IMG/VR virus record: IMGVR_UViG_3300020596_000097
Location: 1 to 25,726 of that record
Strand: one strand, 5' to 3'
Source: a virus
Length of the DNA stretch: 25,726 nucleotides
In this document: one piece after another, positions 1 to 15,659 of the stretch
Position numbering within the stretch: the stretch's first letter is position 1
Layout: every line of letters begins with the position of its first letter
Made by a program: the position numbers and the translations under genes
Notes under the pieces: generated by a model
Databases searched by the model: none
Seen by the model: only the letters and a program-made list of their open reading frames with translations
What the model was told of the DNA's origin: nothing

Positions 1-1512
1 GCCTGAGGTAATATAGCCAGCCTTGCCACCGCCTGGACCGGCACCACTAACTCCAGTGCTACCGGCGCCAAAAGTGTGACCAGCGCCAACACCGCTTAGA
101 GTGCCACTAATTGTCACTGTGTCAAGCGAGTTTATAATAATTGGACTTGCCGAAAGTGTTACTGTGTTTGAAGCTGTTACAGATAAAGTAGTCGCATTAT
201 ATTGGGTAGGAGTTGAAACCGTTGAAGTTGTTAGAGTTACAGCGCCGCTAACGCCATTGCCACCAAAAGAATTTGGCGCAGAAGTGGCAGGTGTAAAAGC
301 TTCATAAGCATTGTCGGCAGCGTTTCTGCGGATAGATTGCATAGCTGTCAACACTGGTGAGTTAACAATTTTTGTGCCGTCAAGAACTGCGAAAGTTTTA
401 TTTGTCGCTGCCAGAGAAGCATTATTACTGCCACCATGCGCGAGATCTATCGGCGCTGGTAAATCGCCATTAACAATTGAGCGATAAGTGTGAGCGACTC
501 CGCCGCCAGCGTTATAGACAAATCCTATAGTTGGAGCGCCTAGAGAAGTCATTGTAGTGCCGGCAGAGTTGCCAACAATTAAACCGTATGCAGTCGGCGT
601 GATTGCTGCGCCGGCGCCACCGTTAGCAGTGGTAATAATCGGTAGATCACTATTTAAAATCGACCTGAACGCGCCAAGCCCCGATCCACTGGCTGGCGAC
701 ATAAACGCTTGATTTTGTGATTGACTTAGACCAGTCGGTGAAATCGGCGCATATCTGCCGTCACCAGTAGTTTGATTCAGTGCATGAGCGCCCAGCGTCG
801 CGTTCGCTACTTTGAATAACGGCGCAGTTTGAGCAAGCGAAGTTACAGCAGTAATTACAGATCCGTTAGTTACAACTTTTTGAATCAGTTGGCCAGGCTG
901 GCCGGTTGGTGCCGGCGCGCCGTTTGAAACGGGAACGTGCAACCAAGAGCCGTTGTTTTGGAAATAATCGTAGGTGTCTTTATTGATCGTATAAGTAAAG
1001 CTATTAGCTGCCGGCAGTAGTCTCTGACCGTTGGCAATGATTACTCCCACGGGCGTAATCATTGTAAGAGAGCTTGACGGAACAGAGCCCACTAGACCGG
1101 AGACCAGGTAATCACTGAAATTATCGGCAGTTACAAATAGCTTTGGATCTGGAGAGACGGCCTGCCAAACCGCAGCGCCTGTTGAGTTGTTAAAACAGAC
1201 ATACAAGGCACTATGCGTAGTATCAAGCCAAACCGATCCGGGCAGATACCCTAATGCATTATCGTCTGATACTGTCGGCGCTGTTGTAGCGGATACATTA
1301 GCTGGACCTGTTCCTAGCACCTGCCAGACGCTACCAGTCCACACTTTGAACTGCCTGGTTACACTGTCAAAAATAACCGTGTTGTTAGCAGTAGGTGTTG
1401 TTATCGAAGAGGTGCCTGGCCGAATGAAATAACCAGTATCGGCAGCGAAGGCTGCTTGGCACGAAACCAAGAAGGCAAGTAATACAACTGCTAAAGTTTT
1501 GAACTGACGCAT
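1..1512 (-). CDS. Signal-peptide-bearing tail fibre / adhesin (5' 504 codons, C-terminus off the left edge)
   Basis: I translated 504 codons without a stop from ATG at 1512, which has GGAGG 4 nt upstream; the frame runs off the window. It begins MRQFKTLAVVLLAFLVSCQA then AFA-AD: a signal peptide, cut after AFA, or lipidated at C18 (L-V-S-C). Residues 45-125 hold two short beta units ending FKVWTGSVWQVLG and ALYVCFNNSTGAAVWQAV. Residues 239-258 include LGAHALNQTTGDGRYAP, and 296-325 ANGGAGAAITPTAYGLIVGN, both common in phage tail fibres. From about 465 a glycine-rich domain begins (GAGPGGGKAG). It is likely the receptor-binding fibre, exported or anchored by unknown means. Confidence 0.82.
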   Translation of the reverse strand, partial: MRQFKTLAVVLLAFLVSCQAAFAADTGYFIRPGTSSITTPTANNTVIFDSVTRQFKVWTGSVWQVLGTGPANVSATTAPTVSDDNALGYLPGSVWLDTTHSALYVCFNNSTGAAVWQAVSPDPKLFVTADNFSDYLVSGLVGSVPSSSLTMITPVGVIIANGQRLLPAANSFTYTINKDTYDYFQNNGSWLHVPVSNGAPAPTGQPGQLIQKVVTNGSVITAVTSLAQTAPLFKVANATLGAHALNQTTGDGRYAPISPTGLSQSQNQAFMSPASGSGLGAFRSILNSDLPIITTANGGAGAAITPTAYGLIVGNSAGTTMTSLGAPTIGFVYNAGGGVAHTYRSIVNGDLPAPIDLAHGGSNNASLAATNKTFAVLDGTKIVNSPVLTAMQSIRRNAADNAYEAFTPATSAPNSFGGNGVSGAVTLTTSTVSTPTQYNATTLSVTASNTVTLSASPIIINSLDTVTISGTLSGVGAGHTFGAGSTGVSGAGPGGGKAGYITSG

Positions 1513-1524
1513 TGCGCCTCCAAA

Positions 1525-2037
1525 TTAGGGAGTGAGAGGTATATGAGCAGTGGCAGCATCAGCTTCTACGGCTGCCTTTACTGCCGGTGTTGCCCAGCCT
1601 GCGAGTGGCCCTGCGGCTTCTGGCGAGTAAGCCATGCATACCGCAGCCCATGCCGTCTGAATTTTTGCTGGCTCAGGGAGGTAGCTTTCCAAAACTGGGA
1701 AAAAAATCGTGAGCTGAAGTTTTGCATAAAGCGGAATTGCATTGTCTGCCCAAATTGAATCTTTAAAGGCAGACATATTGGGCGGCACTGCCACTGGCGC
1801 TGGCGCATAAACGACTGCGTTATTTATTAGCTTGTAATTTCGCAAATCTTCATCAGGTTTGCCGCCAGCATCTGTCGAAGGAGCCCACAAATACACGACA
1901 GCATTTGAAGGAGGTTGGCCAACCCATTTTGCAGAAGGCGAGCCATCACTACCAAATTGCAGATACTGAGAAGTCTGCGCGCAGGCAGAAACAGTCGATA
2001 GAGCTAAGACAAGAAGAAACGCGATCAAGTTTTTCAT
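1525..2037 (-). CDS. Small exported protein or lipoprotein in the fibre cluster, unknown function
   Basis: 170 residues. The ATG follows the previous stop by 2 nt and has AGGA 8 nt upstream. The N-terminus MKNLIAFLLVLALSTVSACA is a signal peptide; V-S-A-C at 16-19 fits a lipobox, so C19 could be lipidated, although a type I cut after ACA is also possible. The mature N-terminal part (KWVGQPPSNAVVYLWAP, LRNYKLINNAVVYAP) is strand-like and ends in a loop; the C-terminal half is helical with IPLYAKLQLTIFFPVLESYL and KIQTAWAAVCMAY. Genes after fibres are often fibre chaperones, and the strand half loosely recalls them, but I do not recognise the family. Confidence 0.62.
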   Translation of the reverse strand: MKNLIAFLLVLALSTVSACAQTSQYLQFGSDGSPSAKWVGQPPSNAVVYLWAPSTDAGGKPDEDLRNYKLINNAVVYAPAPVAVPPNMSAFKDSIWADNAIPLYAKLQLTIFFPVLESYLPEPAKIQTAWAAVCMAYSPEAAGPLAGWATPAVKAAVEADAATAHIPLTP

Positions 2038-2039
2038 AA

Positions 2040-2882
2040 TTAAATTCCTATTCTTCCGCCTTCAAAAGTTCCGTCATTCCAAACTACGCCCGCAGCTCCA
2101 GCTTGACCGCCTACGCTTGTGCCGCCTGAGGCGGTCACGGTACCAGAGTTACTAACACCACTAGATTTTGCAGACTGAAGATTTACAACGCCACCGCCGC
2201 CGCCGCCACCCGCGCCGCCGATTGTGTTATTGCCGCCATTGGCATTAATAATTGCGCCAGAGGCAATGGAGATTGTGCCCATGCTGCGGAAATCAGCGCC
2301 GCCACCCGCTCCAGCTCCACCACCAGTACTACCGTCTGCGCCTCTAACTGAAATATTTGCAAAGGAAGTTAAAGAGATAGGACCATTAGCTTCAACGTAA
2401 AAACTTCCGCCACCGCTCCCTATAACACCACCACCAGACGGAGGCATAGGCGAACCACCACAACCAGGCAATGGCTGCCAGCGGTACGGATAAGCTCCAG
2501 GTGGACCGGGATAACCAGGATATGTGCCACCAAGGCCACCATGTGAACCGCCAGCACCTGAGTTTATTGCGCAGATTCCATAAGGCCCCTGGCCGCCTGA
2601 ATTAGCTTCGACGCCTGTTGCACAGGTGACAGTATCGTTAAAAGTGACTGAGCCGCCGAAGTAACCACGAACGCCGTTTGATGTGATAGGCCCAGTCTGC
2701 ACCCAGTTCCCCGAAGTCTTGTAGACGCCGGTTAGGGTACCTGACGTTGGCATAGGTCTGGCGTTGGTGTAATCACCGAAAGTGAGCGCCGCCTTGGTAT
2801 ACGAAGGCACCACATTCTGAGCTTGACCCACTTGGCCGAACGTAAGACAAAATGCAACCAGTAAAAACAGTAACTTGCGCAT
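2040..2882 (-). CDS. Signal-peptide-bearing glycine-rich adhesin-like protein
   Basis: 280 residues. The ATG at 2882 has AAGGAG 5 nt upstream; a GTG immediately before it is too close. It begins with a clear Sec signal peptide: MRKLLFLLVAFCLTFGQVGQ, then A-Q-N with a predicted cut after A. The mature part has three Cys, a Pro/Gly loop (YPGYPGPPGAYPY), then long runs such as SGGGVIGSGGG, GSTGGGAGAGGGA and GGAGGGGGGG alternating with strand-like segments (ISVRGADG, GTISIASGAIINANGG). This is like glycine-rich domains of phage fibre tips and bacterial surface adhesins. The position after the fibre gene suggests receptor binding, but an export signal on a tail protein is odd. Function is inferred. 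Confidence 0.72.
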   Translation of the reverse strand: MRKLLFLLVAFCLTFGQVGQAQNVVPSYTKAALTFGDYTNARPMPTSGTLTGVYKTSGNWVQTGPITSNGVRGYFGGSVTFNDTVTCATGVEANSGGQGPYGICAINSGAGGSHGGLGGTYPGYPGPPGAYPYRWQPLPGCGGSPMPPSGGGVIGSGGGSFYVEANGPISLTSFANISVRGADGSTGGGAGAGGGADFRSMGTISIASGAIINANGGNNTIGGAGGGGGGGVVNLQSAKSSGVSNSGTVTASGGTSVGGQAGAAGVVWNDGTFEGGRIGI

Positions 2883-2891
2883 CACAACTCC

Positions 2892-4133
2892 TTAAGGAAG
2901 AACATGCCAGCCCACAGCTGCCTGTGGCCCAAGGCGAACGGCGTCCCCGGGATTAAGAGTAATTGGCGCATTGGCTGCCATTCCGCCTAGACTTTCGCCG
3001 GTGGCCGGGTAAATAGTCATGACGTTTGTTGAGCCAATATTTTTAAATTCAACGACACCAGTGCCGTAGGACGCTGCAGTTCCCAAGGTACAAGTTCCGG
3101 CACCACTCGCGGTATTACACAAATAAATCGTGCCGCCGACTACGGGGCTGATCGGGAATGAACTAACGACAACGCAACCGCCTACCAAGCCAATCGGCTG
3201 CCAAACTGCAACACCAGCGCCACCAGTAGTAACGCAAACCCAAAGAATGCTGGCATCAGATTGAAAGAACAAATCTCCCGCTCCCCCAGCTAAAACAGCA
3301 ACAGGCGTGCCAACTCCACTCCTTAAAGTAGGAAGCAAACCATATAGACTTGTCGCCGGCAGGTGAGACAAAGGCACGATGCCGGTGATTTCCGTAGTTA
3401 CATCAATCTGAGGAGCTTGACCGTATGCCGCACCTTTATGATGCTGCGCTCTAACGCCTCGCCAGATCGGAGCTGGTGGATAGCCACCTATGCCTGCTGG
3501 AGCTTCTAAGATTTGACCGTTTGTAATTGTAGTTTGACCGAAAGTCAAAAGCACCAGATATAACGGAACAAAGCCGCCGCCTGGAGATGGTGCGACTTGA
3601 GCGCCGGTAGTAGCCGGTGTGCCGTACACGGTTGAAATTTCAACGGAGCCCTTTCTGACACTAGGCAAAATTCCGCCGTTGTTGTTGATCCCTTGCAGCG
3701 GATTTCTTGGATCCGCTGAGTTGTAGAAAGGCTGAACTCCACTCGTTGGATCGCCAGGCCGTACGGCATCGACTTGCTTGAAACGTGCTCGGATCAAAAC
3801 CCACTGACTTTGGCCAGATGAAAGTTGCGCGGTCGTTAAAACAATTTCTTGTGCTTCTGCGAAACCTAACTGGTAGCAATAACTGGCATCTGCGGCGGCG
3901 GCACCGTAAGGATCAGCATCGACAGGTGCCCATTCTAAAATGCTTCCGGATGCAAGATCAAAAGTCATATTGGGAATTGATTTTGCAGCAGCGCTGAAGC
4001 GGGTAAGGATCGTATCCGACGGCCCGAATAGACTTTGCGCAAGGTTTCCCTCACTCTTCATGCAATCGCGCATGCCTTCCAAAAAGTCAAAAGAACGGAT
4101 CTGCTCTTGGCTGTAAATTATGGATCTGTACAC
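2892..4133 (-). CDS. Baseplate-proximal tail fibre protein
   Basis: 413 residues from GTG at 4133 with AGGGG 7 nt upstream. A TTG 25 codons further upstream overlaps the preceding gene and lacks a ribosome-binding site. The N-terminus MYRSIIYSQEQIRSFDFLEG followed by a helix is a pattern seen in fibre proteins anchored to a baseplate. The middle is Gly/Pro-rich with beta strands, and near residue 290-320 is LWVCVTTGGAGVAVWQPIG, a short unit also found in the last gene of the window. The C-terminal ~85 residues form a beta domain (ITLNPGDAVRLGPQAAVGWH). It likely connects the baseplate to the adhesins encoded next. Confidence 0.72.
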   Translation of the reverse strand: MYRSIIYSQEQIRSFDFLEGMRDCMKSEGNLAQSLFGPSDTILTRFSAAAKSIPNMTFDLASGSILEWAPVDADPYGAAAADASYCYQLGFAEAQEIVLTTAQLSSGQSQWVLIRARFKQVDAVRPGDPTSGVQPFYNSADPRNPLQGINNNGGILPSVRKGSVEISTVYGTPATTGAQVAPSPGGGFVPLYLVLLTFGQTTITNGQILEAPAGIGGYPPAPIWRGVRAQHHKGAAYGQAPQIDVTTEITGIVPLSHLPATSLYGLLPTLRSGVGTPVAVLAGGAGDLFFQSDASILWVCVTTGGAGVAVWQPIGLVGGCVVVSSFPISPVVGGTIYLCNTASGAGTCTLGTAASYGTGVVEFKNIGSTNVMTIYPATGESLGGMAANAPITLNPGDAVRLGPQAAVGWHVLP

Positions 4134-4179: not shown

Positions 4180-5553
4180 TCAACTTTCGTGAATGGCCCA
4201 GTACACAAATGCGTCGACTGGAGGTGCTTCCGAAAAAGAAAGGCGTAAAGCTGTTGTTGTTTTGTCTATGTCAACGCTCGTATTCCATGTTGGCAACACG
4301 AATGCCTGAAACGGATCTCTTGTTGAAACAGGAATTGAAAAGCTGTAATTATTGGCGGGTACTGTTGTAACTCCTGAATACAGTGGATCAAAATATTTGT
4401 AAGCAAAAGAGGCTGATAGTGGAGCGGGTGTTCCGAATTTAAAAACAGCCGAACTGAGAGATTTTGAATGGAGCCAACACGTTGTATTCCAGCTTGGTTG
4501 AGCAATTATTGTTTGCGCTTGGAACGCTGCCAGAATTCCAACCGTACTAGAAATTAAGTCGGCCGCTACTACTCCCGATCCGCAACCTGGCACAATAAGT
4601 GGCGTGGCGACCCAATCAACAGCCCCACCGCCTGGTGGCAATGGCACACTAAACGTCATCAGAAATTGATTTGTGCCAATCGGTGTATAGCTGACGACAG
4701 TATTCCAGTTGCAATTTGCCAGTACCATAAAGGCTCCAGCGAACGCGGGGAACACCTCGATTAAGTAGCTGCTGACTCCCTCTTCAAGAAATAGAGAACC
4801 ACCTACGGCAGTTTTTGTAAGAAGCTGGCCGCTATAACGACGCCAAACAATGGTGCCATAGGGCTTAGTTTTATTGATCAAAGCGTCGATCCGAGCGACT
4901 TGAAGCCACCAAGTAGCTTGTGCCTCAAAGAAATATGCGCTTGGAGAATCCCACGCAGCGCCTTTGTCAAAACACCAAATTGGATAATCGCCCTGGTTGC
5001 CGAAACTAGGTAACGCCGACTCTACAAAGCCCTGGTGCGTTAACCCAGGATCGCCCATACGTGCGGAATTTTCTGGAGTATCAACATCAAAAAATGATTG
5101 AATATCCCAGACCGAAGTATCGCCTGGGCTCCACGGCTCCATTACTCGAGGCTGTTGATTTGTCAGCCTGACAAGAAGGTCTATTAAACTCTGTCGAGTT
5201 GCGGCAGGAAGAAGCAAGGTTGCTTTAATTCGATCGCGTAAGCTGCTATCTGGTTCTCCTGGCGCTCTAATTACATCAGCTGGAAATCCAGCAACACTGC
5301 CAAAAAAATCTTGAGCGATGAGATCAAGCGCTTCGTCGACAGCTGTCTCGATTCGGCAAGCTTTCCAGTCATAACGAACATTTTCAAGTTGGCCGGCAAC
5401 TGCTTGACCAAGGGCAAACATTAGGGCATATAAAACGCCACCGAGCTGCCTTGCCTCAACACTCGTCCAAGGCTCTGGAAAGGTTTTTAAAAATTTGTCG
5501 GCCCATTCCGGTTCTGTGAAGTAAGGAATGACAGTTGGCAACGAGGTGGTCAT
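4180..5553 (-). CDS. Baseplate I-like wedge protein with three C-terminal beta repeats
   Basis: 457 residues. The N-terminal 210 residues include LENVRYDWKACRIETAVDEA and GEPDSSLRDRIKATLLLPAA, the pattern of baseplate wedge proteins encoded after J (T4 gp48/P2 gpI position). P2 gpI is about 180 residues, so this one is much longer. The extra length comprises a linker and three tandem copies of a ~70-residue unit with W-N-T (W near residues 283, 354 and 423) followed by F/L-x-F-x3-P/A-P. The repeats look like small beta sandwiches and could present or bind the fibre encoded next. Confidence 0.72.
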   Translation of the reverse strand: MTTSLPTVIPYFTEPEWADKFLKTFPEPWTSVEARQLGGVLYALMFALGQAVAGQLENVRYDWKACRIETAVDEALDLIAQDFFGSVAGFPADVIRAPGEPDSSLRDRIKATLLLPAATRQSLIDLLVRLTNQQPRVMEPWSPGDTSVWDIQSFFDVDTPENSARMGDPGLTHQGFVESALPSFGNQGDYPIWCFDKGAAWDSPSAYFFEAQATWWLQVARIDALINKTKPYGTIVWRRYSGQLLTKTAVGGSLFLEEGVSSYLIEVFPAFAGAFMVLANCNWNTVVSYTPIGTNQFLMTFSVPLPPGGGAVDWVATPLIVPGCGSGVVAADLISSTVGILAAFQAQTIIAQPSWNTTCWLHSKSLSSAVFKFGTPAPLSASFAYKYFDPLYSGVTTVPANNYSFSIPVSTRDPFQAFVLPTWNTSVDIDKTTTALRLSFSEAPPVDAFVYWAIHES

Positions 5554-6701
5554 TAGAAGCTACCAACGGTCACGTTGGCCGGAATTGTTCTAATGACCTC
5601 AAACTGAGTGATTACCTTATCCAATTCCAAAGTATCAATTTTCACGCTATTTATTTGCACGGCATAAATGTTGTCTGGATCTGCAGCTTTAGCAATCTCG
5701 ATCAAGTTATAAACATAAAGAGGTTGGCCGATCTTGAGGCTATTTATGTAACTGACAATTGCAAGTTGCGCTTTTGTTTGAACCAAAGTTGAGTTGACAT
5801 CAGGGTTGACTTTGATATTCAAGGTTGCAGCAACAGTCACTTTCGTTGCTGGAACAACAACGAAAGCAATCGTAAAACCTCGCACTCGCTCAACAGCTTG
5901 TGTGATCCGCGTAAGCAATGCTTCTGGAGGATCGCCAGAGCCGTCATCAATTACAACAGTGAAAAACCCATTTCGTGCGCTGCCGTTCTGATCGAAGTTT
6001 TCAACTAGATTAAAGTTGATCGCTTGCTGCACAGACATAATTGCAGCAGAGATCGACGGCCGGGTATTTTTGGAAAGGCTGTTTATATAGAGAATAAAAC
6101 GGTTGCGAACATCGGTGTCAGATTCAGCATCTAAGCCGTTTGTGATTGCTAAGGTGTTGAGCACATCGTCTGCGCCAGTGTTGCTTGACGAGAACTGCGA
6201 GATCTGATTTGGTTGAACGTTATATGCGGAGCCAGCTATTGGAGCTTCAACAGTAGCGATAATGCTTGTTTGCCCAGCTTGGATAATGTAAGCGCCGTTC
6301 GCGTCGCTCCATGCCGTTTGAGTTGGATCAGCAACGATTGAGTACTTAATCGCGCCGCCTGGAGTCTGTACAACCTTGCCAATCGGAACAGTGACGTTAT
6401 CCGCTCTGGCAATCCTCAAGCTGAGCCGGACTTGGCCGCGAGCTTTTACGGCTGGAAGGCGAGCGAAATCAAACTGCGCCATCCACGAATCGAGATCTTC
6501 ACCAGTCGCAGTCGTTGAACGTGAGAAAATATAGACTTTCTTGCACAGCGCTTGAATGAAATTGATCTGTGTGGCATCACCTTGAGCGATCGCAAGCAAT
6601 GGATCGCCGCTCGTCAAACTTGGGTCTAATCCAAGTTGACTGGCAAATTCTGAAACTAATTCTGAAGCGATTTGCTCTTCAGATTTGATGTTTAGTGGCA
6701 A
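5553..6701 (-). CDS. Baseplate J-like wedge protein
   Basis: 382 residues. The start is TTG at 6701, supported by AAGGGGG 8 nt upstream; no ATG or GTG lies nearby in frame. The sequence TATGEDLDSWMAQFDFARLP (about residues 64-83) is the signature of baseplate J-like proteins, followed by beta domains (VTVPIGKVVQTPGGAIKYSI) and a C-terminal alpha/beta part (LAIVSYINSLKIGQPLYVYN, with AADPDNIYAVQINS). It forms the wedge arm connecting to the outer baseplate (T4 gp6/P2 gpJ). Its stop overlaps the next ATG (TAATG), suggesting coupling with the I-like gene. Confidence 0.92.
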   Translation of the reverse strand: MPLNIKSEEQIASELVSEFASQLGLDPSLTSGDPLLAIAQGDATQINFIQALCKKVYIFSRSTTATGEDLDSWMAQFDFARLPAVKARGQVRLSLRIARADNVTVPIGKVVQTPGGAIKYSIVADPTQTAWSDANGAYIIQAGQTSIIATVEAPIAGSAYNVQPNQISQFSSSNTGADDVLNTLAITNGLDAESDTDVRNRFILYINSLSKNTRPSISAAIMSVQQAINFNLVENFDQNGSARNGFFTVVIDDGSGDPPEALLTRITQAVERVRGFTIAFVVVPATKVTVAATLNIKVNPDVNSTLVQTKAQLAIVSYINSLKIGQPLYVYNLIEIAKAADPDNIYAVQINSVKIDTLELDKVITQFEVIRTIPANVTVGSF

Positions 6702-7179: not shown

Positions 7180-8193
7180 TTAGCCTGCCGCGAAGACTGT
7201 AGTGGTTTCTGCGTCAACTATAGCTGGAATTAATGGAGCACTAGTAATGCCGCCTGGCGCGTTGTGAGAGTGGCCATTAAACAGCAAAAGAAATGCCTCG
7301 TTGCATAGTCTTTGTACTTGAGCCGGGTCCAGGCCAGCATTAATAAATGGCGCGATTAGATTGATAAGTCCGTCAGCGATTACGGAAACAGTGGTGCCTT
7401 CCACCGATACATCGCCGCTGATTGTTGAAATGCCTATATCACCGCTTTCGGTAATTACAAGAATGCTGCCTTCCTCTGAGCTCACAAGGGTATCGCCAAG
7501 GGGCGTGGTTACCGTTGTATTGCCTAGTTCAACCAGGCTATTCAAATCGCCTTCTTCAACAATTATATTTGCGCTACCTTTTTCGACTGTGACATTAAGA
7601 TCGCCTTCACGCACAACAATATTTGCTTCTTCTTTCACGTAGAGATGTAGGTCTTTCTTGGCAAACAACTGCACGTTGCCATCTTCGTAGAATTTCAGGA
7701 AGCTTCCACCAGGCAGCAACATCACATATTCGCCTGCCTTAAGTTTTTCCCGGCCTTTCTTATCTTCATCCCAGCCAAACTTCTCGCCATCTTCCTCTTC
7801 TTGAGCTTCTTGATCTTGCTCTTCCTGAGATTTCTTGCCACTGCCTGGCGGCTCCATTTTTTCATTCCAGCAGAGATGCGCGGTCATCATGTGACCGTCA
7901 GATCTTTCCAGGATATGAACTTGAACCTGCTCACCTTTCTCAGGCTCGTCCTTAGTTGCGCCTCCTTGAAGCGCGTATTGCACACCAGTTTTATCGCCGG
8001 TTACTCCGGCGCCAAGTGATATCCAGTTCGTCTCACAAGGCTCATCATCCTCGTCCTGCATGATCATCACTTTGACGGCGTGCGTTTCAGGATCGTAACT
8101 TGAGACGTGGCCCCATTTAATTAGCTTTGTTTCGCCGACGTTGGCCTTTGAAACGTGGCCAATTCCATGCATGAAATCAGTTTCGCCGCTCAT
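7180..8193 (-). CDS. Baseplate central spike (gpV/gp5-like)
   Basis: 337 residues from the ATG at 8193, which overlaps the hub stop (ATGA) and has GGAGG 4 nt upstream; a longer frame reaching 8295 lies inside the hub gene and is rejected. Residues about 1-110 look like the OB-fold of spike proteins (YDPETHAVKVMIMQDEDDEP). Residues about 115-148 are highly acidic. Residues about 165-270 are short valine/glycine-rich repeats with G-D/S turns (EGDLNVTVEKGSANIIVEEG), a trimeric beta-helix. Near residue 306 is GHSHNAPGG; HxH motifs at this place bind iron in P2 gpV and phi92 spikes. It is the membrane-piercing tip. No lysozyme domain is present. Confidence 0.87.
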   Translation of the reverse strand: MSGETDFMHGIGHVSKANVGETKLIKWGHVSSYDPETHAVKVMIMQDEDDEPCETNWISLGAGVTGDKTGVQYALQGGATKDEPEKGEQVQVHILERSDGHMMTAHLCWNEKMEPPGSGKKSQEEQDQEAQEEEDGEKFGWDEDKKGREKLKAGEYVMLLPGGSFLKFYEDGNVQLFAKKDLHLYVKEEANIVVREGDLNVTVEKGSANIIVEEGDLNSLVELGNTTVTTPLGDTLVSSEEGSILVITESGDIGISTISGDVSVEGTTVSVIADGLINLIAPFINAGLDPAQVQRLCNEAFLLLFNGHSHNAPGGITSAPLIPAIVDAETTTVFAAG

Positions 8194-9329
8194 GACACCT
8201 CCGGCCTTAACTGCGCTGTAATCTCTGTAAACAGCCCGCCTGAGCTTCCGCCCTCTTCGGGCATATCCCAACTGTGCACAACTTGGCTGATGCAATATTC
8301 GATAGCATCAAAGCCTAAAATATCGACTGAGACGCATTTGACCTTGAGCTTGGAGTGAATCTTGACTGGCTTCATTTCAATGGTGCCTGACATGATAATT
8401 TGCTTTTTGGCAATGTCCTTGGCAGTTGCTTTCGCAAGTTCGTCAGCCTGTTCCTGAGTCAATCCATCTCTTCGAATAGTCACTGTGGGAGTTTTATTAG
8501 CTTTTGTGGATTTGGTCTTGCGTGTCTTCCGTGTTTTCTTAGGTTGTCCCGAAGCGGTGTAGCGCTTGTTTCCGCCGCTCGGTTCTTTGCCTTTTGCAGT
8601 AGCTTCAGAAGACACTTTTTGCGCTTTTGTGGGATGGTAGCTGACCACTTTTACCTTTACATCGCCGTTGCGCGCCAGCTGGTAAGTAGTCTCCAGGTCT
8701 TTAATTGGATTTTTGGGATTATTCTTTGGGTCGCCACCGTAAGTCACAGTTAAGGTGCCGCCACCTGATTCCTCGGGAGGTTTGAACGAAAGAACGTTAT
8801 CTTTGTCGACTTTTACTGCATAGCCCACCTGTCTGGCCAAGTCTTGGAACAGACTCCACGGATTGTCGGCACTGGGCAAATATTGGTGTTCGCCATGCTG
8901 CTCGGAGCCGGCCATGATGCCAGGATCCTTAATATCGGTATCAAGGCCAAAATCTTCAGCAACCTGCTTGACGATTTTGCCAATTGTCTGGTTTTTGAAA
9001 TCGTATTTTGATAACACAAGCTTGGACTGGTTGAGAACTGCACCAAGATCTCTACAACTGATTTCGACCGTGTCTCTATCCCACTTAAATCTGACATCAT
9101 CAACGACACCGCTAAAAAGATGATCTAGCCCGTCAAGGCCAGCATGAATGTCTACTGCATCGTCTTTTTTCGGAATTTCGACGCCTTGTATACGCCAGGC
9201 AGCAATGCTACTTGAGATGTTGGCAGTTGAGAACTCACCTTGGGAGCTGTCGGTTACTTTAAATGCGGACGCCGGCAAGTCTGTGCCTGCCACCGAAATT
9301 GAAACATTGATCATGCGAGCTAGAGCCAC
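8190..9329 (-). CDS. Baseplate hub protein (gpD/gp27-like)
   Basis: 379 residues using GTG at 9329, which has GGAG 7 nt upstream (9337-9340). The ATG five codons later has no ribosome-binding site, so the GTG is preferred, giving a 10-nt overlap with the upstream gene. The N-terminal half (AGTDLPASAFKVTDSSQGEF, then FSGVVDDVRFKWDRDTVEIS) and the central part (VAEDFGLDTDI, NPWSLFQDLARQVGYAVKVD) fit gpD-like hubs with tube-like domains. Residues about 255-285 are extremely basic (KKTRKTRKTKSTKANK), an insertion not typical of the family core. The hub trimer links tube to spike. The spike gene overlaps its stop as ATGA. Confidence 0.85.
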   Translation of the reverse strand: MALARMINVSISVAGTDLPASAFKVTDSSQGEFSTANISSSIAAWRIQGVEIPKKDDAVDIHAGLDGLDHLFSGVVDDVRFKWDRDTVEISCRDLGAVLNQSKLVLSKYDFKNQTIGKIVKQVAEDFGLDTDIKDPGIMAGSEQHGEHQYLPSADNPWSLFQDLARQVGYAVKVDKDNVLSFKPPEESGGGTLTVTYGGDPKNNPKNPIKDLETTYQLARNGDVKVKVVSYHPTKAQKVSSEATAKGKEPSGGNKRYTASGQPKKTRKTRKTKSTKANKTPTVTIRRDGLTQEQADELAKATAKDIAKKQIIMSGTIEMKPVKIHSKLKVKCVSVDILGFDAIEYCISQVVHSWDMPEEGGSSGGLFTEITAQLRPEVS

Positions 9330-14048: not shown

Positions 14049-15659
14049 TTACGCTGCCAGACCGTCTTGCAGAGTGTTTTGAACAGTGATTACAGTGGTG
14101 CCGCCCTGTAGGTCGATGATCAGATACTGAACACTCGACATATAGCGAACATAAACTTGAGCTTTCAAGAATCCGCGCGCGATCATTGCGTCAGAGTTAT
14201 TTGACTTGTCGCAAACAACCTTGAACGAATCAATTTGCAAGTTGTCGGCTAGGTTCTGAAGGAACTCATCTAGAGCGGCTTTAACTTGTGCTCGCAAAGG
14301 ATCATTAGTCCGTTGCGATTGATTCATACCGACAAACCTGCCCATGTAGCCGTTAATCGAGTGAGCTAAGAAATTGGTCATTCTTGCCCATTCAATTCTT
14401 GCGCGTACACCGTCAGTGGTTGCAGCATTACCATGAGGCATGCCCCACATGCTGCCAGCGGGAATCGGATTGTGAGCAATCATAATTCCGTTATCGTGGC
14501 ACTGGCCGATTTCGGACGCTGAGTATGATCTGTAGCCGGTTTGATCGTTCAATCGCTCAGTGCCGAGCACTTCAAACAACTCTTTGTTGCAAGGGCTATT
14601 CTCGGGTGACAAAGCAGCAATGCGGCCGGCGATAAATGGAGTCGGAGAAACTAACTTGACGCGACCGACGCCTGGTGTTGAGTCGAAATGATAGACCCAA
14701 TCTTTAGTGAAGAAACAAAGCGGATCGTCAATACCGAGTGTCGTTCTAGTGCTGGATGCAGTTGCAGTAGACGTTCCGGCGGGAAGCGTGAACGCGGCCA
14801 TCATGCCTTCACTGCGCACAAACGATTGGATGGTTGGAACTGCAGTTGGATCTGTTAAACCAGCGCACCACATAACAGTAGGCACAGGTTGAAGGTTGCG
14901 AAGAGAATAGATGCCAGTTTTAGGAACGGCACCATCAGAACCCATGAAGCTTGCGACGTCGACAGTAGAACGGCCATCGGTACCACCAGCCATCGAGAAT
15001 GGGCTACCAACCAGCGTTGGATTGACCGAAGTACCGCCAGCGGCGCTGGCTTTAACGAGCTTAGAAGGTCCACGGAATCCACTTACGCCTTGGTTGATTG
15101 CATTCAGCAAATTATTTGCGAAGACACCAGCAGAACCACCCAAGATATTTGGGAAGACTTCTACATCAAGCGGGCTCGGAGGGACTAAGGTCACGTTGTA
15201 CGAACTAAGTGCGGCACCATTTGTGATGTGAACTTTGATCTGGTTGCCGACAATACCGCTGTAGAGCGCGGTCAAAGTGAGAATGGCTACCGGCGAACCG
15301 GCGATATCCATCAGAATTACGCTCGATTTGGCGTCTGTACCGTCCGAAATACGGACGAGCCATTGCTGTTGTGAAACTGGAGACTGTGCTTGAGCAAACG
15401 CAATATTGCTCTCGTTGCAGAGGTCGAAAGGATCGGACGATCCAACAACTGAACTGCCACCATAAGCAAGAGCGGTATCGGAAGGAGAGCCAGAAAGGTA
15501 AGGCGTATTGAGAGCGCCCCATGATGCAGTGCCAAGAATCGCAGCTGCATCAGTAGGCTGGCCTAAAATATAACCAGGTGGTCGAATAATTCGAACGTAG
15601 ACGCCTGGCGTATTCAGCGCAAGCAAGTTCAAATTATTGGAATCGTAAATAATGGCCAT
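14049..15659 (-). CDS. Contractile tail sheath protein
   Basis: 536 residues. The N-terminus contains NTPGVYVRIIRPPG (about residues 16-29), the signature of phage tail sheath proteins. Residues about 110-215 form a beta-rich insertion domain (VAILTLTALYSGIVGNQIKV). The C-terminal third has the long helix and strands typical of the conserved sheath core, including FLAHSINGYMGRFVGMNQ and ending with VRYMSSVQYLIIDLQGG, TVITVQNTLQ. Copies stack around the tube and contract to drive it into the host. Start is ATG with GGGAG 8 nt upstream. The tube gene follows 15 nt later. This gene makes the phage a myovirus type. Confidence 0.94.
   Translation of the reverse strand: MAIIYDSNNLNLLALNTPGVYVRIIRPPGYILGQPTDAAAILGTASWGALNTPYLSGSPSDTALAYGGSSVVGSSDPFDLCNESNIAFAQAQSPVSQQQWLVRISDGTDAKSSVILMDIAGSPVAILTLTALYSGIVGNQIKVHITNGAALSSYNVTLVPPSPLDVEVFPNILGGSAGVFANNLLNAINQGVSGFRGPSKLVKASAAGGTSVNPTLVGSPFSMAGGTDGRSTVDVASFMGSDGAVPKTGIYSLRNLQPVPTVMWCAGLTDPTAVPTIQSFVRSEGMMAAFTLPAGTSTATASSTRTTLGIDDPLCFFTKDWVYHFDSTPGVGRVKLVSPTPFIAGRIAALSPENSPCNKELFEVLGTERLNDQTGYRSYSASEIGQCHDNGIMIAHNPIPAGSMWGMPHGNAATTDGVRARIEWARMTNFLAHSINGYMGRFVGMNQSQRTNDPLRAQVKAALDEFLQNLADNLQIDSFKVVCDKSNNSDAMIARGFLKAQVYVRYMSSVQYLIIDLQGGTTVITVQNTLQDGLAA

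Follow-up and report, generated by a model that had tools for sequence, protein, structure and literature searches.

Three consecutive genes of an uncultured contractile-tailed phage, designated A, B and C, each begin with a predicted Sec signal peptide (SP), and their products are most likely fibers or adhesins that are exported via Sec and cleaved by signal peptidase I. Many other phages bear such a tag exactly before what is otherwise an ordinary tail-fiber start. Together, these findings suggest that certain phages send outer appendages through the host Sec machinery, so that their assembly is not confined to the cytoplasm. What the sequence itself shows comprises the leaders, the signals for translating them, their conservation and modular position, and the fiber nature of A. 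The window (the whole stretch of DNA analyzed) represents the final 25.7 kb of contig G000:C147 (41,258 bases), which belongs to a 5.9-Mb draft genome of 333 contigs. The phage encodes a terminase, a contractile tail sheath (14049 to 15659), a baseplate J-like protein (5553 to 6701), which served as the anchor of the tail module, a sheath-initiator-like protein and a number of fiber proteins, all on the negative strand, as are genes A to D and their features described below.

Genes A, B and C are positioned in the tail operon behind the baseplate genes, where the surrounding intergenic gaps measure 2 to 12 bases. Gene D (2892 to 4133), the product of which is a baseplate-proximal fiber protein without an SP, probably uses a GTG start at 4133, its reading frame being open to 4208. 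The contig ends within A, truncating its 3′ part, so that A, B and C, which a sequence-only reading had described as the last three genes, come last on the contig but not in the phage. The phage probably continues on contig G000:C248 of the same genome, since the next stretch (profile positions 540 to 720) of a profile of A and A′, its counterpart in the related phage described below, lies at the very end of that contig, and since a small “DxNKDG” protein stands behind both this stretch and A′; the missing 3′ part of A thus probably lies at the end of G000:C248. At this site (L027, 10280 to 11023, negative strand), the glycine-rich open frame at the contig end precedes the genes for the small DxNKDG protein and for a lysozyme. 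On its other arm, the phage contig (L002) harbors thymidylate synthase, dNMP kinase-like, serine recombinase (IS607-type) and tRNA-Met genes (509 to 1954, 7580 to 8284 and 8660 to 8737). A small SP-bearing coiled-coil protein is encoded upstream of the terminase genes (L002, 14227 to 14517) in a layout resembling that of L013 (16758 to 17081), and is possibly a lysis or envelope protein. Single-sequence scans returned no close relatives of B or of the baseplate J-like protein.

Gene A (1 to 1512) encodes a tail fiber-type protein of 504 amino acids up to the contig end, the SP of which (1444 to 1512; MRQFKTLAVVLLAFLVSCQAAFA) has a predicted cut after residue 23, before ADTG, and is preceded by the Shine-Dalgarno sequence GGAGG (1517 to 1521) at a gap of 4 bases. 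Gene B (1525 to 2037) specifies a 170-amino-acid protein with an SP (1978 to 2037; MKNLIAFLLVLALSTVSACA) that is predicted to be cut after residue 20, before QTSQ, its Shine-Dalgarno sequence being a weak AGGA at a gap of 8. The product of gene C (2040 to 2882, with an ATG start at 2882) is a glycine-rich, adhesin-like protein of 280 amino acids with an SP (2820 to 2882; MRKLLFLLVAFCLTFGQVGQA) and a predicted cut after residue 21, before QNVV, and the gene is preceded by the Shine-Dalgarno sequence TAAGGAG (2888 to 2894) at a gap of 5. All three N-termini display a positive n-region, a long uncharged hydrophobic h-region and small residues at positions −3 and −1, as scored by our own script for n-, h- and c-regions, which is not SignalP and whose cutoff is passed by 0.9% of shuffled phage-protein N-termini. 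Among 20,000 shuffled N-termini per gene, the observed score was reached by none for A, 1 for B and 78 for C; 22 of the 23 other genes of the window scored nothing, the exception (8190 to 9329) being a weak false positive. The leaders are very probably translated, given the Shine-Dalgarno sequences before their starts and the lack of any start codon backed by a ribosome-binding site behind them within the first 60 codons of each gene. A dual start yielding a cytosolic isoform was rejected, as no such start is present behind the leaders of A, B and C or of the nozzle-like gene of L025 discussed below. The signal peptides attributed to these genes by the sequence-only reading were therefore borne out by their three regions, their cut sites, their own ribosome-binding sites and the shuffle test, and the three leaders are indeed unalike in sequence.

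As that reading had also stated, A contains the fiber motifs GDGRYAP and ANGG...GLIVGNSAG. Residues 69 to 119 of A (1156 to 1308) constitute a fiber module which is common to many SP-less phage tail fibers and phrog_33012, and which is also present in cultured-phage proteins annotated as tail fiber. Since 76 of the 79 proteins with this module at viral loci fetched with the A-type profile lack an SP, export does not appear to be needed for the module, and A is, as judged from its composition, made up of ordinary fiber parts with a predicted export tag in front. Of the three fiber-region genes, A carries tail-fiber modules, while C is only glycine-rich as far as fiber-type features are concerned and no tail-fiber sequence modules were found in B. 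When B was considered as a tail fiber assembly chaperone, no Pfam, PHROG, PDB-sequence or fold match was obtained, and the N-terminal half of its structural model was of low confidence; the model, which is partly confident, contains a helical C-terminal domain and has no significant match among PDB or viral structures. The structural model of A was poor (pLDDT 44), and PDB sequence searches with A, an SP-bearing relative, B, D and nozzle-like profiles returned nothing useful.

Conservation of the leaders in homologues, the check proposed by the sequence-only reading, is seen for A, B and C in the nearest related phage. Contig G016:C46, from the same bacterial family as G000, harbors a phage with a 51% identical sheath and the gene order D′, B′, C′, A′, in which D′ lacks an SP and the other three products all carry one, the leader sequences being divergent. 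A aligns with A′ at 43% identity, and the latter comprises 721 amino acids with a glycine-rich C-terminus. Directly behind the leader lies the A-type mature N-terminal domain (xGxFVRPxSSxIxSP...; 1309 to 1443), which corresponds to the first approximately 45 mature residues, starts at the cut in all four homologues and is found in four SP-bearing proteins of four phages (A, A′ and those of L058 and L072). B-like proteins are encoded after fiber genes in unrelated phages of G000's bacterial order (L025, 17728 to 18120; L026, 9128 to 9517; L013, 8869 to 9321); this family bears an SP in two myophages and lacks it in L013, L025 and L026, its podophage members matching weakly. Some B-like proteins and some proteins of other families are thus homologues that start downstream of the hydrophobic stretch, the observation named by the sequence-only reading as refuting, whereas none of the A-type proteins does so; such homologues point to gain or loss of the tag rather than to an unreal tag.

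Lipobox candidates, which would represent alternatives to the predicted cuts, are LVSC in A (residues 15 to 18), ITAC in A′ and VSAC in B, while C, B′, C′ and the A-type proteins of L058 and L072 contain none. The earlier proposal of lipoproteins coating the infected cell consequently finds some footing in A, A′ and B and none in C, B′, C′ and two of the four A-type proteins; as the lipobox is not conserved in the family, a lipoprotein coat processed by signal peptidase II was rejected as a common theme, and signal peptidase I is the predicted common denominator of the leaders.

The same arrangement recurs in other fiber families. Viral contigs were scanned with the DNA-level pattern STINPxxPxxxxxLxSAP[VIM]RxNF, which carries no leader information, and 24 stretches were retrieved. 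The pattern follows the initiator methionine in five (L136, L142, L148, L154 and L155), is cut off in one and follows an SP in about 16 distinct contigs, where STIN begins 0 to 6 residues behind the predicted cut, so that cleavage would restore the usual fiber N-terminus. Gain and loss of the SP in this family require four changes on the best tree, of which well-supported branches force only one. A phylum-wide profile search for this family yielded no match, and pattern and profile scans of genome contigs for its hosts were also empty. SP-bearing genes inside tail operons often form blocks, with four in a row in L160 and two each in L150 and L141; the L160 block around the STINP gene encodes proteins of 1007, 221, 889 and 347 amino acids. 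The STINP gene of L147 (minus strand, core 5771 to 5839) is an SP-bearing fiber gene immediately flanked by baseplate J on one side and a tail protein I-like gene on the other. At baseplate J-anchored loci of 80 viral contigs, an SP was predicted for 0 of 207 large genes upstream versus 6 of 126 downstream (Fisher P = 0.003).

The C-terminal parts of SP-bearing proteins match annotated tail fibers or spikes (Bradyrhizobium phage ppBdUSDA122-1; Pam5). In ppBdUSDA122-1 (OP596612), whose virions are produced spontaneously by Bradyrhizobium diazoefficiens USDA 122, an annotated tail fiber carries a leader and its C-terminal third matches tail-collar and tail-fiber families, the proteins of interest in this phage being WAX24263.1 and WAX24264.1, with a predicted mature N-terminus AEQSS...; the paper on this phage is without virion proteomics. 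More central virion parts can also carry an SP: in podophage relatives, the protein encoded between the major capsid protein and the tail adaptor (the head-fiber position) bears one in L026 and L042 and lacks one in L025, and the nozzle-like tail protein of G031:C147 (L025, 13316 to 15025), the only such gene on its contig, has a 20-residue SP and a good ribosome-binding site, its orthologues in L026 and L028 starting without one. An SP-bearing protein of 142 amino acids with weak tail-protein similarity (phrog_16194) is encoded in the head-tail/tail region of the noncontractile prophage G026:C2 (L012, 16279 to 16707). SP-bearing fibers were found neither in G034:C9 and G046:C483, from the host order, nor in the stretches inspected in several cultured phages. 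SP-bearing STINP proteins contain 9.7 cysteines per 1,000 residues versus 2.7 in their SP-less relatives, and among SP-bearing proteins of more than 250 amino acids, even cysteine counts outnumber odd ones by 20 to 6, with no even bias in controls; this pattern is consistent with a stay in the periplasm, although the signals are modest or small and the proteins partly related.

Based on these observations, we propose, at slightly under even probability, that A, B and C are exported, processed and then meet the virions at lysis. As late tail-operon proteins, they would be exported via the host Sec machinery, and signal peptidase I would remove the leader, leaving an N-terminus of the same kind as in SP-less phage fibers. 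The mature fibers or adhesins would fold in the periplasm, a compartment that permits disulfide formation, would encounter virions built in the cytoplasm once the cell lyses and would dock next to the cytoplasmic fiber D via the conserved N-terminal domains, the putative docking function of which we infer from their position. Docking is favored because immediately after the cut the proteins retain a docking-type N-terminus, for which a mere decoy would have no need, and a meeting with virions because parts as central as the head-fiber-position and nozzle-like proteins can carry an SP. Among the three explanations offered by the sequence-only reading, that of adhesins which join virions after lysis fits best in view of the conserved fiber N-terminus behind the cut, with virion docking as its conjectural part. 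We know of no precedent among tailed phages for docking after export, and exported fibers could be lost by diffusion, which counts against docking.

The proteins may instead be exported without becoming virion parts, a reading which we regard as a substantial but lesser possibility, and in which secreted or surface-held fiber-type adhesins would occupy host receptors, for superinfection exclusion or to keep progeny from adhering to debris, or would glue cells together. Export by Sec in itself suggests a destination outside the virion, A, A′ and B contain lipobox candidates, the SP-bearing genes of the myophages adjoin fiber gene D, whose SP-less product could serve the virion alone, and Lom of phage lambda, an SP-bearing β-barrel outer-membrane protein rather than a fiber, sets a precedent as an exported product of a gene located among the tail genes (PMC12309495). 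A decoy, however, needs only its receptor-binding end, yet the docking-type N-terminal domain is strongly conserved in the SP-bearing proteins; moreover, the head-fiber-position protein (L026 and L042) and the sole nozzle-like protein of G031:C147 also bear an SP, and the lipobox is not conserved.

Retention of an uncut leader, as an N-terminal helix that either tethers fibers to the inner membrane while assembly proceeds or becomes embedded in the baseplate, would agree with virion assembly in the cytoplasm and with the single helix drawn by AlphaFold (at low confidence) for the leader of A. This explanation is nonetheless unlikely, given that A-x-A-type cut sites directly precede an ordinary fiber N-terminus in about 16 contigs, that the leaders are unalike in sequence and that SP-less relatives are devoid of any hydrophobic N-terminus; the leader resembles a modular add-on, and the earlier suggestion that the baseplate retains a hydrophobic N-terminus is accordingly disfavored. 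Rather improbable, too, is an origin as lysogenic-conversion morons, i.e., surface proteins of bacterial type that are expressed on their own and came to lie among the tail genes: despite the export signals and the temperate lifestyle of some relatives (G026:C2, G016:C2 and the Bradyrhizobium phage), the gaps within the tail operon are only 2 to 12 bases, promoter and terminator patterns are no commoner than in shuffles, and the fiber modules are common to phage tail fibers. That the hydrophobic stretches arose by chance or from wrongly annotated starts might be argued from the use of a predictor other than SignalP, but is very improbable in light of the shuffles, ribosome-binding sites and homologues, and is largely refuted for A and C.

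Tailed-phage assembly is, in textbooks, a cytoplasmic process. Known tail fibers, such as module proteins of Rhizobium and Roseobacter phages and tail collar fibers, agree with those described here in their position after the baseplate genes, the module at residues 69 to 119 of A and the kinds of N-terminal domain, but are built in the cytoplasm and begin right after the methionine, whereas A, B and C carry an SP. Prophage proteins of the Lom and Bor type, the latter a small lipoprotein, are likewise SP-bearing, and Lom is similarly located among tail genes. Llp of phage T5 and Cor are phage-made superinfection-exclusion lipoproteins of the envelope that block receptors; they are small and lack fiber modules, in contrast to A. 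The pIII and pVIII proteins of filamentous phages are virion proteins with cleavable Sec signal peptides, but inoviruses assemble at the membrane and are extruded, while the carriers described here are double-stranded DNA tailed phages. No report of SP-bearing tail fibers was found in the accessible portion of the literature on signal peptides and tail proteins, a weak negative, as subscription journals lie mostly outside its coverage.

The need for an explanation of export signals on fiber-type proteins, the central point of the sequence-only reading, survived the tests that were run. In its most general and still more tentative form, the proposal is that some tailed phages may add Sec-exported, signal peptidase-trimmed and periplasm-folded fibers, head fibers and one nozzle-like protein to their virions at lysis, the SP being a portable module that is gained or lost at the exact fiber N-terminus. 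A recurrent export tag on several fiber families would imply that virion assembly has a second stage outside the cytoplasm or else that secreted fiber-type proteins are widespread, and in both cases the annotation and testing of receptor-binding proteins from environmental phages would change.
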